From NCBI GenBank assembly GCA_022710185.1, contig JAKLHK010000008.1, forward strand, positions 1-64,000: a stretch of DNA of 64,000 bases, written 5' to 3'. Origin of the DNA: Bacteroidota bacterium (GTDB lineage Bacteria > Bacteroidota > Bacteroidia > Bacteroidales > JAGNHN01). The notes beneath the pieces are model-generated. The model did no database searches and was not told the origin of the DNA. It worked only from the letters and a program-made list of their open reading frames with translations. Made by a program: the position numbers and the translations under genes. Positions 18,474-25,742 of this stretch are shown one piece after another. Numbering within the stretch: the first letter of the stretch is position 1; the number at the start of each line of letters is the position of its first letter.

Positions 18474-18481
18474 TACCTTTG
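18474..18481 (+). promoter_or_regulatory. -7 promoter box for the sugar-transferase-like gene
   Basis: TACCTTTG, 14 bp before the ATG at 18496. The implied 5' leader is about 10 nt. No clear -33 box was seen at the expected distance. Confidence 0.5.
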
Positions 18482-18495
18482 GCCCGATTCAGCGC

Positions 18496-19530
18496 ATGGA
18501 AAACCTCCTGATCGAATCCATAGGGCATGAAGCCTATGCCTACATCAGCCAGTACTGCGACCTGGGCTCTGCGGACACGCTGATGCTGTCCACCACTACC
18601 CTGTTTAACATTCAGAAGGAGCATGACGAGGCGTTCCTCGCTATCATCAACTTCAGGAGAACCAATGACATCCAGCAGCTGAACCCTTTCTTTCATGCCG
18701 TGAATGAGAAGCTGGGGATCGGCGGCGTTTATATTGGCTGTGTGGAGACCTATGTCCTGCGCAAGAAGCGTCTGCTGGCCAAGTATCCTCCGGGGCTCAA
18801 CTACCTTTACTATGCCCTCGATTTTCTGGTGAAGCGCATCTTCCCCAAGCTCAAAGCCACCCGCAGGCTGCATTTCCTGCTTACCCGGGGCAACAACAAG
18901 GTGTTGTCCAGGGCGGAGACCTTCGGCCGCCTCTGTGCGGCTGGCTTCAGGATCAGAGATGAGAAGACCATTGGGAAGTTCTTGTTCTTTGTTGCGGAGA
19001 AACAGAAGCCACCCCAGCCCGAGCCCCGGTCCAATGAAGGTTTTCTGATCCGTTTGCCTCGGGTGGGCAAGCACGGGAAGACCATTATGGTGTATAAATT
19101 CCGCACCATGCATGCCTATTCGGAATTCCTGCAGGACTTTGTTTACGAGAAGCATGCACTGAAGAACGGGGGCAAGTTCAATCATGATTTCCGAATTTCC
19201 ACCCTGGGCCGTTTCATGCGCCGTCTCTGGCTGGATGAGCTGCCCATGCTCCTCAACCTGCTGAAGGGGGAGATCAAGTTGGTGGGCGTAAGGCCGCTGA
19301 GCCGGCATTATTTTGAGCTGTACGACGAGGGACTTCGCAACCTGAGGATCAGGTACCGGCCCGGGCTGATCCCACCCTATTATGCCGATCTTCCGGAAAC
19401 CCTGGAGGAGATCATGGAATCTGAGCGGAAGTACCTGGAATCATACCGCAGGGCACCGTTGCGCACAGACCTGCGGTACCTGGGCAGGGCGCTCCGCAAC
19501 ATCGTCCTGAAACGGGTGCGCAGCAGTTGA
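18496..19530 (+). CDS. Sugar-transferase-domain protein lacking the membrane helix
   Basis: 344 residues. The C-terminal half (about 183-300) is a Bac_transf domain like that of polyprenyl-phosphate glycosyl-1-phosphate transferases: VYKFRTM at 199-205, then RISTLGRFMRRLWLDELP at 233-250, LLKGEIKLVGVRPL at 255-268 and a PGL..P segment. The reentrant membrane helix that normally starts this fold is missing. Instead there is an unrelated N-terminal region of about 180 residues with no clear transmembrane segment. I recall similar two-part proteins from other Bacteroidota, with no proven role. It probably acts in surface-glycan assembly or lipid modification. It lies just upstream of a small sorting-signal protein and an exosortase on the same strand. 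Confidence 0.82.
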   Translation: MENLLIESIGHEAYAYISQYCDLGSADTLMLSTTTLFNIQKEHDEAFLAIINFRRTNDIQQLNPFFHAVNEKLGIGGVYIGCVETYVLRKKRLLAKYPPGLNYLYYALDFLVKRIFPKLKATRRLHFLLTRGNNKVLSRAETFGRLCAAGFRIRDEKTIGKFLFFVAEKQKPPQPEPRSNEGFLIRLPRVGKHGKTIMVYKFRTMHAYSEFLQDFVYEKHALKNGGKFNHDFRISTLGRFMRRLWLDELPMLLNLLKGEIKLVGVRPLSRHYFELYDEGLRNLRIRYRPGLIPPYYADLPETLEEIMESERKYLESYRRAPLRTDLRYLGRALRNIVLKRVRSS

Positions 19531-19561
19531 TCTGACAAGGTCTGGTGCCAAAGCATTATCG

Positions 19562-19569
19562 TAATTTTG
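19562..19569 (+). promoter_or_regulatory. -7 promoter box for the exosortase pair
   Basis: TAATTTTG followed by C, between the sugar-transferase stop (19530) and the ATG at 19597, with a 27-bp gap to the ATG. It suggests that the mini-protein and exosortase can be expressed apart from the upstream gene. Confidence 0.5.
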
Positions 19570-19596
19570 CAACATGGGGGCTCACATTCAGAGGAT

Positions 19597-19866
19597 ATGC
19601 ACCGGATACTGACCTTACTGGCGTTTTTATGCTCCGCCGGATCGGCAGGGCTCCGGGCCCAGCCCGATCCCCCTCCCGGGGGTCCGGGAGGAGGGGATCC
19701 CCCCGTAGGCGGCAGCCCGCTTGACGGTGGCCTGGCTGTGCTTCTGGTGTTGGCCGGGTTGTATGGCCTGTGGCTGGGCTTCACCTGGTGGCGGCAGCGC
19801 CGTCAGGAGGTCCCTTCGACGCTGCCACGGAGCGCCTGGAGGTCCGGGGCAAAGGAAACGGAATAG
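19597..19866 (+). CDS. Mini-protein with signal peptide and PLDGG C-terminal sorting signal (putative exosortase substrate)
   Basis: 89 residues. Residues 1-22 form a signal peptide (MHRILTLLAFLCSAGSAGLRAQ). Next comes a 20-residue Pro/Gly linker, then the tripartite layout of an exosortase signal: SPLDGG at about 40-45, a hydrophobic helix (LAVLLVLAGLYGLWLGF), and a basic tail (WWRQRRQE). It resembles the short P-x-DGG-type sorting proteins of Bacteroidota. Almost nothing remains after removal of both signals, so the mature product would be a short Pro/Gly peptide. An in-frame TTG at 19567 is possible, but that codon overlaps the -7 box, so ATG 19597 is preferred. It lies 9 bp before the exosortase gene, strongly suggesting enzyme and substrate. 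Confidence 0.75.
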   Translation: MHRILTLLAFLCSAGSAGLRAQPDPPPGGPGGGDPPVGGSPLDGGLAVLLVLAGLYGLWLGFTWWRQRRQEVPSTLPRSAWRSGAKETE

Positions 19867-19875
19867 GCAAGCCCC

Positions 19876-20460
19876 ATGCGCCCCGCATTCTCCCATATCC
19901 ATACCTGGCTGAGGTCGCGCACACCCGCCTCCCGCATGGCAAACCTGGGGATCTTCGTACTGCTTACCCTGCTGATTCACTTTGGCTTCCGTTGGTGGGC
20001 CTATGAGGCAGACTACCAGATCTTCGGGGTGACCCTCATCACCCTTGACTTCTTAGAAGCCATGGGCAGTGTGGTGTTCCGCCAGGCCAGATGGATGGTA
20101 ATGGAGCTCAGCGGAATAGATGCCCGTGTAGTAGGTCAGATCATGTACATGCCCGATGGAGGTGGGGTGGCCGTCGACGGCTCTTGTTCAGGCCTCAAGC
20201 AAATGCTGCAGTTCGTCCTGCTCCTCCTTCCCCTGCCGGGCCCCTACCGCACCAAGCTGTGGTTTATCCCCCTCGGCCTGCTGATGATACACCTCATGAA
20301 TGTGCTGAGGGTCTATGGGCTCTGCCTGGTGATGCTCTGGGACCCTCCGTCCTTCCAGCTCTTCCACGATTACCTCTTCCGTCCGCTCTTCTATATCCTG
20401 ATCTTCGGGCTATGGCTGTGGTGGACCGAGCGGCTGAGGCCCGCTCCGTTCAGGGGCTGA
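19876..20460 (+). CDS. Exosortase/archaeosortase family protein
   Basis: 194 residues with about five to six transmembrane helices, matching the short exosortases of Bacteroidota rather than the long proteobacterial EpsH type. The catalytic Cys-Arg-His set is visible: Cys104 in DGSCSGLKQ, Arg145 in NVLRVYG and His164 in FHDYLFRP, each at a membrane boundary as the family requires. Such enzymes cleave substrates at a short C-terminal motif and are thought to transfer them to another molecule. The preceding mini-protein is the obvious substrate. A second start at Met21 (19936) is possible. Its stop codon overlaps the end of a truncated gene on the other strand. Confidence 0.87.
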   Translation: MRPAFSHIHTWLRSRTPASRMANLGIFVLLTLLIHFGFRWWAYEADYQIFGVTLITLDFLEAMGSVVFRQARWMVMELSGIDARVVGQIMYMPDGGGVAVDGSCSGLKQMLQFVLLLLPLPGPYRTKLWFIPLGLLMIHLMNVLRVYGLCLVMLWDPPSFQLFHDYLFRPLFYILIFGLWLWWTERLRPAPFRG

Positions 20461-20683
20461 TGCTGTACGTTTCCTTGTCCGCATGCGGGAAAGTGGCAAC
20501 CTGCCCCATGACCCAATCGTAGGTCCGACGGCCCATGAGGACGAAGTCCACCCCCTCAATGAAGCGTGCATAGCCGTAATCCTCCCCGGGTCTGTTCACC
20601 CGGTCCAGAAAGCTCAGGTCATCGCCCGGTGCATCAATGTAGCCATCGCAGGAAACCGCGATGTAGAGCAGGAGTTTTCGCAT
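20450..20683 (-). pseudogene. Truncated dihydrofolate-reductase-like (RibD C-terminal fold) gene
   Basis: 77 residues matching only the N-terminal part of RibD-C/DHFR-like proteins: the first strand RKLLLYIAVSCDGYIDAP, the D-x-S-F-L segment, and F-V-L-M-G-R-R-T-Y-D-W with the family G-R-x-T-Y motif at about 51-55. Full-length relatives have about 175-190 residues. Similarity ends around ADKETY, within about ten bases of the exosortase stop codon on the opposite strand. The remaining 100 residues, including the NADPH-binding loop, are missing, so the product should be inactive. It appears to be a remnant cut by a rearrangement or insertion that brought in the exosortase segment. Confidence 0.72.
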
Positions 20684-20698: not shown

Positions 20699-21613
20699 TT
20701 ATTCCAGGGTGAACTGCGAATAGCCGATCTCGTACCCATCGATGAAGATGTACACATTGTAGGTTCCCTTCATCGCAGGTTCCTCGCTCTGCTTTTCCCA
20801 ACTGAGGCACACGTTCATGGCCTTGTTCTGGTAATTCACCTCCTGCTTCATGGAAAAGTTCAGCTTCTGGCCCTGGTGCTCAAAGGTGAAGGCATCGTCT
20901 TTGCCCCGGGTGATGATGACATTGTCGGGGCGGGCGATGCGCACATAGATATTGCGCGGACCGGGCTGGGCCACAGGATTCTCGCTGAGGGTAAAGCAAA
21001 CCCTGACGGCATCCACACGGCGGGCCTTGTAGGTGACCTTCTCACTGTCCTCTCCCCTGACCCGCAGACCCTCGCAAACAATGTTGTAGGCCTTGAGCAC
21101 TGCCGCCTGTGTCACCTTACCTTCAAGCTCCACCTTGCTCTTCTCCAACTCCTGTGAGATGGTGACCTGTTTCTCGTATTTCTGGGTGAGCTGAACGTTC
21201 TCCTCGGTCAGCTTACGGTTGGCGGTATAGAGCGAATCCAGCTGATTGAGGTAGCCCTGGGTGGTTTTGCGCAGCAGGTCGAGCTTTTTCCGGATACGGT
21301 AATAGTCGGCCTGGGAGGCGATGAGCTTCTTGATCTCATCGGCATTGGCGCGGATGAGGCTGTCCGCGGCTATCAGGGAATCGGCCAGTTCACCGTACTC
21401 CAGCTTGATCACGTCATGCTCCTTCATCAGGGAATCCAGCTCCGTCTGCAGGGTGAGGTTCTCCTTCACCTTCTGTTCGATCTTTACCACCGAGCTCTTG
21501 TTCTGCTGAAGCAGGGCGATGACCAGGCCGATGATGATCAGGACCAGCAGGATGATGATCCCTTTGTACCGCCGGTCGCGGCGGGAAGCTTCAGGCTGGG
21601 CGTATTCGTTCAT
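20699..21613 (-). CDS. Single-pass membrane protein with long coiled coil, unknown function
   Basis: 304 residues. A short basic cytoplasmic tail (1-17), one transmembrane helix (about 18-39), a coiled coil rich in Glu, Lys and Leu heptads (about 45-170), and a C-terminal beta-rich domain (about 185-304) containing R-V-C-F-T-L-S-E-N-P and NIYVRIARPDN. The topology places coil and C-terminal domain in the periplasm. I recall similar conserved proteins across Bacteroidota but no assigned function. An AGGAG lies 2 bp before the ATG. It follows the C69 peptidase gene in the same direction after 63 bp, so the two may share a transcript. Confidence 0.8.
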   Translation of the reverse strand: MNEYAQPEASRRDRRYKGIIILLVLIIIGLVIALLQQNKSSVVKIEQKVKENLTLQTELDSLMKEHDVIKLEYGELADSLIAADSLIRANADEIKKLIASQADYYRIRKKLDLLRKTTQGYLNQLDSLYTANRKLTEENVQLTQKYEKQVTISQELEKSKVELEGKVTQAAVLKAYNIVCEGLRVRGEDSEKVTYKARRVDAVRVCFTLSENPVAQPGPRNIYVRIARPDNVIITRGKDDAFTFEHQGQKLNFSMKQEVNYQNKAMNVCLSWEKQSEEPAMKGTYNVYIFIDGYEIGYSQFTLE

Positions 21614-23457: not shown

Positions 23458-25098
23458 TCAGTAGTTCCAGTTCAGGCCGAAAGTGTAGGTGGGTCCGGAA
23501 TTGGGCAGGAAGGCGGGCTGGGGACGCCCCGGCCACGTGGACAGGAAGGCTGCATTCAATGCCAAGTGAGCGAAAACCTCATAGCGCAGGCGGAGCTCAT
23601 GACAACCCGAGCTCCAGTTCTCGCTTTCCATGAAGGGAAGGCCCAGCCTGTCGGCGCCCAGGGAAGTGTAGTCGGGCCCAAGCCTCAACCCGGTATAGGA
23701 ATACTGCACCCAGCCCATGGGAAGGGGTGTCCAGCGCAGGGAAAAATAGATCTCATCGGCATTGTCTGGAAGATAGCTGCCCAGGTTGTAATGATTGGAT
23801 TCGAAGGTTGTCAGTGGGGTGTTGTGCCGGTACACCAACGGATTGTTCCGGGTGTATTCCAGAATGAAGCGAAAATTTCGGGCAGGGAGGTCGTACACTG
23901 CCATCCCGGCCTTCATTCCAAAGAAATTGGAGTGCTCATCCTTGTCCCACAGCCTGCTGAAGGAGATCTCATCCACAAACAGGCTGGCGTAGAAATGAAA
24001 CCTGCGGAGCTGGTATGAACTGATATCGAAGAACATCTGGGAGTTCTGTCCCAGCCGGCTGCTGCCGGCCCCGGTAAGGGTGTGGTCCACCGATTTCCAG
24101 AAGAGAAAAGGGATGAAGAAGGCGAACTTCGGTTGATCGTCGCTGTATATTATGCTGTTGCCGAAGGAGATGCTGAGTTTTTCCATCGGCCTCACAGTAA
24201 AGAGGTTAGCAGCGATGTACTTGTCATAGAAGTACTCCCTGCGCTCGGTGCCGTAGGCGTTGGAATACCATCCGGTGCGGGAGCTGTCGATCACCCCTGA
24301 GATCAGCCACCCATGAAAATAGTTGAATTCCAGCCACTTTGCCGGGTTCAGATGGAGTTTAAGGAATGGGAAGGAGGGAGCTCTCCCCCCAAAGATAGAG
24401 GTACCGTGGTATCCGCTGCCCCAGCGGATGTCGTCCTTGGCTATCGTAATGTCTCCCCAATCCCAGGCATAGGAGATGCCTCCCCTGGCCTCGCTGTACT
24501 CCCCACCTTCCCCGGAGATCTTGTAATTGGCCCCGGGCCTGAGGGTGATATCCTTCACTTCGCTGAGGCGGACAGATTCGTAATGGTCGGCCAGACCGCC
24601 CCAGAAGCCCCAGTGCCTGCCCATGCCGGCGGTGAATGCCAAGCCGCTGCGCCTCCAGTATTCCATTCCATGCGCGTTGACCATGCCTTCCGCACCCAAC
24701 AGGGGCTTGATCCTCAACCAGAAGCGGGAGTCGCGTATGGAAAGAAGGTCGCTGTTCACCGCAGCGTCAGGAAATTGTCGCAGACCCTCAAGAATGGATC
24801 GTGTCCTTACAGGGCCGGCGGGAACCGCTTCCTCTTCAAACCGGAGCGGGGCAAGGTGATTGCGGAGCGTCTGTGCGAGGCGGCTATTGCCCGGAAGGGA
24901 ATCGGCGGCTCCGCTCAGGGCCTGGCGTATGCTGCGGGAAGAAAGGGATCCGGTGGCCAGGTCAAGGTCTGTGTAGCCGAGGGCTGTCAGCTCGTCCAAA
25001 AGATCATACACCCCTTCATTGCGAAAGTGGACCGGTACTTCCTGGCTCAGAACATTCCAGGAGAGGAGCAGGAACAGGAGGAAAGCCGTATGTCTCAT
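23458..25098 (-). CDS. Outer-membrane beta-barrel protein, Wzi-like (capsule assembly family)
   Basis: 546 residues from the ATG at 25098, which opens a clear signal peptide (MRHTAFLLFLLLSWNVLSQ). The open frame reaches upstream to 25287, but that stretch overlaps the RNase HI gene and lacks secretory features. The rest is made of alternating amphipathic strands ending in an aromatic residue (FGLNWNY). The segment with DDIRWGSGYHG and APSFPFLKLHLNP (about 235-265) resembles the Wzi capsule-assembly family of Bacteroidota, whose members help organise surface polysaccharide. It lies 11 bp downstream of RNase HI on the same strand. Assignment is by pattern only. Confidence 0.72.
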   Translation of the reverse strand: MRHTAFLLFLLLSWNVLSQEVPVHFRNEGVYDLLDELTALGYTDLDLATGSLSSRSIRQALSGAADSLPGNSRLAQTLRNHLAPLRFEEEAVPAGPVRTRSILEGLRQFPDAAVNSDLLSIRDSRFWLRIKPLLGAEGMVNAHGMEYWRRSGLAFTAGMGRHWGFWGGLADHYESVRLSEVKDITLRPGANYKISGEGGEYSEARGGISYAWDWGDITIAKDDIRWGSGYHGTSIFGGRAPSFPFLKLHLNPAKWLEFNYFHGWLISGVIDSSRTGWYSNAYGTERREYFYDKYIAANLFTVRPMEKLSISFGNSIIYSDDQPKFAFFIPFLFWKSVDHTLTGAGSSRLGQNSQMFFDISSYQLRRFHFYASLFVDEISFSRLWDKDEHSNFFGMKAGMAVYDLPARNFRFILEYTRNNPLVYRHNTPLTTFESNHYNLGSYLPDNADEIYFSLRWTPLPMGWVQYSYTGLRLGPDYTSLGADRLGLPFMESENWSSGCHELRLRYEVFAHLALNAAFLSTWPGRPQPAFLPNSGPTYTFGLNWNY

Positions 25099-25109
25099 AA
25101 CCGGCGGCT

Positions 25110-25742
25110 TTACTTCCTTCCGAAATCCGCCGGCACTTCTCCCCAGGCGGAGGTCTCCCACTTGAGCACGGGGTTCTTCCACCGGTGGATAGCCAACCAG
25201 CGTTCTGCGCGTTCGATCAGTTCGAACACCCGGGCATTCCTGGCACTCCTGGGGAGTTTCGTATTGGCCTTCTTGTCCTTTACCCATTTGATGGCGGTCC
25301 GTGAATCCGAGTACACGGGGATGTCCAGGTTGCGTTCATGAAGGAATGCCAGGGCGTGGACGATGGCCAGGAACTCTCCGATGTTCACGGTCCCTTCTTC
25401 GAAGGGTCCCTGGTGAAACAGTTGCGCTCCCGTGCGGGTGTCCACACCCCGGTATTCCAGTACGCCGGGGTTGCCTGAACAGGCGGCGTCCACCGCCAGG
25501 CTGTTGGTGTCAGGTCCCCGGCCAAACTCAGGCTCAGCTCCGATCAGCTTAGCCTTTTTACCGATAAAGTGGTGCGGAGGTTTCGAAAAAGCCTCCCAGG
25601 CCTGGTCTTCATTCTCAAATCCTTTGTATAAAGCACCTTCCACGCCATCCACCTGCTCCTTGCAGGCTGCCCAGGAGGGGTATACCCCGGGCACCTTACC
25701 CCTCCACACGACGTAGTGGGTGTTTTTATTCTTTTTCGACAT
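25110..25742 (-). CDS. rnhA: Ribonuclease HI with viroplasmin-type N-terminal domain
   Basis: 210 residues. The N-terminal 50 residues (HYVVWRGKVPGVYPSW ... YKGFENEDQAWEAF) form the RNA:DNA-hybrid-binding viroplasmin domain found in eukaryotic-type RNase H1. The catalytic domain shows the four acidic metal ligands: Asp85 (AVDAACSGNPG), Glu123 (IGEFLAI), Asp146 (YSDSRTA) and Asp206 (PADFGRK). It degrades the RNA strand of RNA:DNA hybrids. A TATCTTTA box lies 5 bp upstream of the ATG, so the leader is very short. The Wzi-like gene follows 11 bp downstream and is probably co-transcribed. Confidence 0.93.
   Translation of the reverse strand: MSKKNKNTHYVVWRGKVPGVYPSWAACKEQVDGVEGALYKGFENEDQAWEAFSKPPHHFIGKKAKLIGAEPEFGRGPDTNSLAVDAACSGNPGVLEYRGVDTRTGAQLFHQGPFEEGTVNIGEFLAIVHALAFLHERNLDIPVYSDSRTAIKWVKDKKANTKLPRSARNARVFELIERAERWLAIHRWKNPVLKWETSAWGEVPADFGRK

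Follow-up and report, generated by a model that had tools for sequence, protein, structure and literature searches.

The stretch of DNA analysed here (64,000 nucleotides, hereafter the window) encodes an exosortase together with a putative small substrate of the PID-CTERM type, an 89-residue mini-protein. By profile scores and phylogeny, the pair is a diverged form of the XrtX/PID-CTERM type and falls under both curated cut-offs. In the relatives of this bacterium, the mini-protein genes (minis) show a strong genomic link to T9SS cargo, of which the window itself gives no more than an indirect sign. The identity and family of the pair, the T9SS gene pairing in relatives and the codistribution described below are established by sequence comparison; new among them are the T9SS cargo genes upstream of minis, the RemA/RemZ-type domain shared by the cargos and a codistributed membrane protein. 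It seems, with about even chances, that the exosortase makes the mini-protein into a carrier-bound Pro/Gly peptide serving a partner T9SS surface protein.

The exosortase gene (19876-20460, + strand, 194 aa) begins 9 bp after the end of the mini-protein gene (19597-19866, + strand, 89 aa), and further upstream lies a gene for a sugar-transferase-like protein with a Bac_transf domain (18496-19530, + strand, 344 aa). The match of the exosortase to the TIGR04178 signature (59.8 bits, cut-off 23) places it in the exosortase/archaeosortase superfamily. The best named family is XrtX (NF046081), which it matches with 97.7 bits, under the cut-off of 170, and none of the relatives tested reaches 170 bits either. 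Cys104 (codon 20185-20187), Arg145 (20308-20310) and His164 (20365-20367) are present, and none of the three varies among the 10 relatives aligned. No other clear exosortase was found in the genome to which the window belongs. The ORF calls and the alignment agree with a preliminary description of this DNA in the places of the three genes, the 9 bp gap and the intact Cys/Arg/His set.

Homologues of the exosortase were found in 39 of 99 genomes, almost all of the same order, and a tree of 38 sequences contains two supported groups. The XrtX-type group (13 members, support 100/99) has a CLGRN-like active site and, in most members, a mini just upstream; the group of the window (16 members, support 95/94) mostly has a CSGLKQ-like one. 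The window exosortase falls outside the group whose exosortases adjoin PID-CTERM minis scoring above the cut-off, and on the evidence of the tree it belongs to an unnamed clade separate from the XrtX-type clade. Its branch is long (1.5), and its position within its group is unsure. The 16 genomes counted below as the window's clade were picked by score before the tree. They include G046 (L048, situated at the end of a contig), whose very long branch falls outside the tree group, and the counts could therefore shift by one. A separate alignment-based scan of the contigs of named genomes gave 80 exosortase loci, mostly of Bacteroidales and every one from a record entitled as an uncultured or metagenome-assembled bacterium; a few of them repeat contigs of the first set (e.g. 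L266 = L039). A single-sequence scan of the same genome contigs gave no match.

As read from its sequence, the mini-protein starts with a signal peptide (19597-19659), MHRILTLLAFLCSAGSAGLRA, presumably cleaved after A21, where GLRA is followed by Q; the minis of relatives likewise start with Q or D after A. Then come a Pro/Gly segment, QPDPPPGGPGGGDPPVGGS (19660-19716), recognisable by sequence and family composition, and a sorting signal identified by signal profiles (19717-19803), comprising PLDGG, a hydrophobic helix and a basic RQRR, with a tail behind it. All six window frames were searched with a profile built from 57 mini-proteins of other genomes, the window's own being left out; this protein came out at E=7e-13, with the next best match at 0.46. 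By this match to an independent profile it belongs to the wider PID-CTERM-type set built here, while its score with the curated PID-CTERM model NF046080 is 17.4 bits, under the cut-off of 26. The consensus of the wider set is P-[ILV]-[DG]-[GSN]-G-[LIM]-x2-LL-x2-G-x2-Y-G-x-[KR]-K; in the window's signal the helix is not followed at once by [KR]K, and the tail is longer. That the small frame is no real gene, or that its match arose by chance, is scarcely credible: the score under the NCBIfam cut-off would speak for it, but it is already contradicted by the E-value with the independent profile and by the position 9 bp 5' of the only exosortase of the genome. Both the build of the protein and the uniqueness of its signal in the window had been described correctly, and in the whole genome (92% complete) one convincing PID-like signal was found as well. 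A second match in this genome (C50) was rejected as a substrate, since it scored 14.8 bits, lies in a 211-aa frame and is unmatched by profile A1.

XrtX-type genomes have 1 to 4 PID-CTERM matches above the cut-off each, all of them in frames of 67-102 aa; often these closely precede the exosortase, and often they are alone with it. Profile A1, which contains the window's own signal, found minis of the same build in 14 of 16 window-clade genomes, but in only 3 of the 30 genomes examined in which no exosortase had been detected (p=3e-7). A strict DGG pattern overlooked most minis, and profiles were used instead. Window-clade genomes have 1 to about 15 minis each, mostly unlinked to the exosortase. 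Judging by these frames, both clades normally have tiny putative substrates, and a single mini in a genome marks one extreme of the range. The suggestion that exosortase and mini-protein form a one-to-one pair is therefore borne out in this genome but not in general, and the system cannot be called undescribed, as it had been: NCBIfam already has XrtX and PID-CTERM, and the PID-CTERM proteins found in XrtX-type genomes are all minis. Three genomes, G014, G071 and G077, have minis but no detected exosortase. It may have been missed there, being divergent or unassembled, since two of the three carry the codistributed membrane protein.

At 46 mini-loci, the gene immediately upstream mostly encodes a large exported protein on the same strand, usually 0-150 bp away. 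The T9SS type A CTD was detected at 27 of 34 upstream C-termini versus 2 of 34 downstream neighbours (p=4e-10). Genomes of this group contain about 75 to 150 or more CTD matches, only a few percent of their genes, which argues that the upstream cargo pairing is beyond chance. A model of the ~330-residue region before the CTD, with three exosortase-linked cargos and a protein from the genome of the window as its four seeds, matched 31 of 43 upstream neighbours versus 0 of 29 second-upstream neighbours. Among the 80 scanned loci, 11 of 16 minis are preceded within 300 bp by a co-directional gene with this domain; of the remaining minis, at least two begin at a contig end. Proteins with the domain occur in 36 of 39 exosortase genomes versus 19 of 60 others (p=7e-10; this and all other tests of codistribution and pairing are uncorrected for kinship between genomes). 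Paralogues inside one genome are not independent; the pairs span many genomes, each from a different family. As was found by sequence search, the cargo domain matches RemA (8gl6, E=5e-34), RemZ (8gl8, E=9e-28) and, in part, Mfa5, while Pfam has no model of it. Its predicted structure (pLDDT 60.5) was too poor and was dropped in favour of the sequence search.

The mini-gene of the window itself is not located behind a T9SS cargo gene, its upstream gene being the transferase, and some minis of relatives also have non-cargo neighbours. The genome encodes two proteins with the RemA/RemZ-type domain, L204:5617-8190 (- strand) and L324:2233-6465 (+ strand), one of which also bears a dockerin; neither adjoins a mini-gene. 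Most T9SS cargos, and most domain proteins of the 19 genomes without a detected exosortase, have no mini, and the mini is accordingly dispensable for T9SS export as such. The link to T9SS cargo lies outside the window and was therefore invisible to the preliminary description; no earlier report of it was found in the literature searched, the coverage of which excludes most subscription journals. A further secreted protein with a dockerin-like GDVNGS-type tail precedes the cargo-mini pair at L155, L160, L174 and L182 (G070:C78, G049:C62, G046:C205 and G041:C83).

A polytopic membrane protein is encoded divergently to the exosortase, within 160 bp, in 14 of the 80 loci. The presence of its family tracks that of the exosortase (20 of 24 genomes, p=6e-7; in the group of the window 14 of 16, p=5e-9). 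Members include L204:4671-5564 (G000:C7) and L037:5671-7038, both on the - strand. In the window's own genome, the gene for the membrane protein is on a different contig and follows immediately on that of an 857-aa protein, which combines the cargo domain with a LamG-like domain and a dockerin. The family received no name from Pfam or NCBIfam, and an AlphaFold model (best pLDDT 82.7, only one of five being good) had no fold match in the PDB (best E 0.45).

The transferase belongs to PF02397 (80 bits, gathering score 27). Since the match begins only at model position 36, the domain is without its N-terminal membrane helix, and the strongest 19-residue mean hydropathy is 0.96 versus 2.9 in a canonical member, in agreement with the helix-less Bac_transf protein proposed earlier; the core motifs LDELP and KFRTM are retained. 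Its N-terminal ~180 residues (18496-19047, + strand) look methyltransferase-like by eye and have no match in Pfam or the other libraries. The family is found in Bacteroidota, in 30 of 99 genomes, and is often about 510 aa long with an extra N-terminal membrane part. At 12 of the 80 independent loci, a full-length homologue and the exosortase are no more than ~6 kb apart, against a rough expectation of about 0.1; these loci often also have a homologue of the barrel protein described below and generally have no mini between transferase and exosortase. The proposed check of three-gene co-occurrence turned out negative, as the transferase is not codistributed with exosortases (Fisher p=0.82 in the 99 genomes, p=0.24 in the window's clade). 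The idea of a fixed trio was therefore abandoned, and what is left of it is a recurrent linkage. Many unlinked signals along with an unconserved trio had been named as evidence against such a cassette; unlinked minis did appear in the relatives, while the window's own genome has one convincing signal.

Elements of the Bacteroidota -7-like pattern TAnnTTTG precede both the transferase ATG (TACCTTTG, 18474-18481, + strand, 14 bp 5' of it) and the mini-gene ATG (TAATTTTG, 19562-19569, + strand, 27 bp 5' of it), which suggests that mini-gene and exosortase gene form a transcription unit separate from the transferase. Position 18474 is the start of the former element, and no gene begins there. The 64 kb contain 18 such sites, no excess over shuffled sequences, and it is placement alone that supports a promoter role. 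On the other side of the exosortase, a 304-aa coiled-coil protein is encoded convergently (20699-21613, - strand; homologue in 18 of 80 exosortase loci); it has a single hydrophobic helix and no family name and is found close to this exosortase clade. A putative outer-membrane barrel of 609 aa (23458-25287, - strand; homologue in 15 of 80 loci) is unnamed in Pfam and NCBIfam; in L266 (= L039) and L274, transferase and exosortase flank its homologue. A likeness to Wzi was unsupported by any library searched. A 77-aa ORF (20450-20683, - strand) overlaps the stop of the exosortase gene; by eye it resembles a truncated start of the dihydrofolate-reductase family, possibly a gene remnant.

Exosortases cut their substrates at the sorting signal and transfer the new C-terminus. 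By analogy, the mini-protein would be exported by Sec and lose its signal peptide, with its C-terminal helix holding it in the inner membrane. The exosortase would then use Cys104 to cleave at or near PLDGG, and a Pro/Gly peptide of roughly 20-25 residues would be moved to an envelope lipid or glycan carrier, with the helix and basic tail staying behind. It is gene pairing that suggests the subsequent role: the processed peptide may anchor or dock a protein that is exported by the T9SS and has a RemA/RemZ-type domain. In relatives this protein is encoded directly upstream of the mini-gene; in this genome two such proteins are encoded elsewhere. With the CTD at its end, a T9SS protein has no place for a terminal exosortase signal as well; putting that signal on a small protein of its own would be one way to combine both systems. 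A two-sortase relay, in which the exosortase mounts the C-terminus of the mini on a carrier and PorU joins the cargo to it, so that the mini acts as a cargo-specific adaptor in many Bacteroidota, is a long shot.

The mini could instead be an end product, the exosortase making a peptide conjugate for exopolysaccharide or capsule with the first sugar added by the transferase, and the cargo pairing reflecting co-regulation. The transferase and barrel protein do recur near this exosortase clade, XrtX-type minis are often alone with the exosortase, and a link to exopolysaccharide loci is general among exosortases (PMC1569441, PMC12188702). This reading is doubtful in view of the tight T9SS cargo pairing across many lineages, the transferase that is not codistributed and the surroundings of the pair, in which no larger polysaccharide locus was recognised. 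It is improbable that the glycan made by the helix-less transferase is joined by the exosortase to the mini-peptide in a fixed three-gene unit. The gene order in the window and the linkage at 12 of 80 loci fit such a cassette, but it meets the lack of codistribution, the general absence of a mini between the linked genes and the separate promoter-like elements.

The adjacent co-directional genes, with the cargo first, and the membrane helix that would stay on the mini until cleavage also fit an inner-membrane-tethered periplasmic partner, a pilot or tether of the T9SS cargo released by the exosortase. A Pro/Gly segment of 20-30 residues has no obvious folded surface for this task, and most of the CTD proteins, at about 75 to 150 or more per genome, do without a mini, which makes such a function rather unlikely.

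Compared with described systems, the pair is closest to XrtX/PID-CTERM (NF046081/NF046080), the best NCBIfam match for both proteins, which shares the mini just upstream and the succession P-[ILV]-[DG]-[GSN]-G-[LIM], helix, Y-G. It differs by the scores (97.7/170 and 17.4/26 bits), the clade and the CSGLKQ versus CLGRN-like active site; a literature search found no paper using XrtX or PID-CTERM in the sense of NCBIfam. XrtA (EpsH)/PEP-CTERM with TIGR03013 also combines an exosortase, a tripartite C-terminal signal and a sugar transferase with the same Pfam domain, but its motif is PEP instead of PLDGG, its substrates are large and varied, and the window transferase reaches only 51.8 of 393 bits with its glycosyltransferase model TIGR03013. 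XrtF of Flavobacterium johnsoniae (Fjoh_1448) is likewise a Bacteroidota exosortase with an adjacent partner protein, but the window exosortase scores 47.3 of its 90 bits. XrtF is required for surface colonisation (PMC10936215), and its targets are unknown (PMC12188702). The F. johnsoniae T9SS substrates RemA and RemZ share their domain with the mini-paired cargos. PorU anchoring in Porphyromonas gingivalis is similar in that type A CTD cargo is put on the surface by a transpeptidase reaction; in the reports found, the anchor described is A-LPS, and no mini-peptide of an exosortase is mentioned (PMC8545088, PMC7468200).

For Bacteroidota exosortases few targets are known. The repeated pair of cargo and mini-substrate, with its codistributed membrane protein, joins the question of these targets to that of how many Bacteroidota retain type A T9SS cargo at the surface, and makes both testable; the window presents the minimal form, one exosortase with one mini-substrate.
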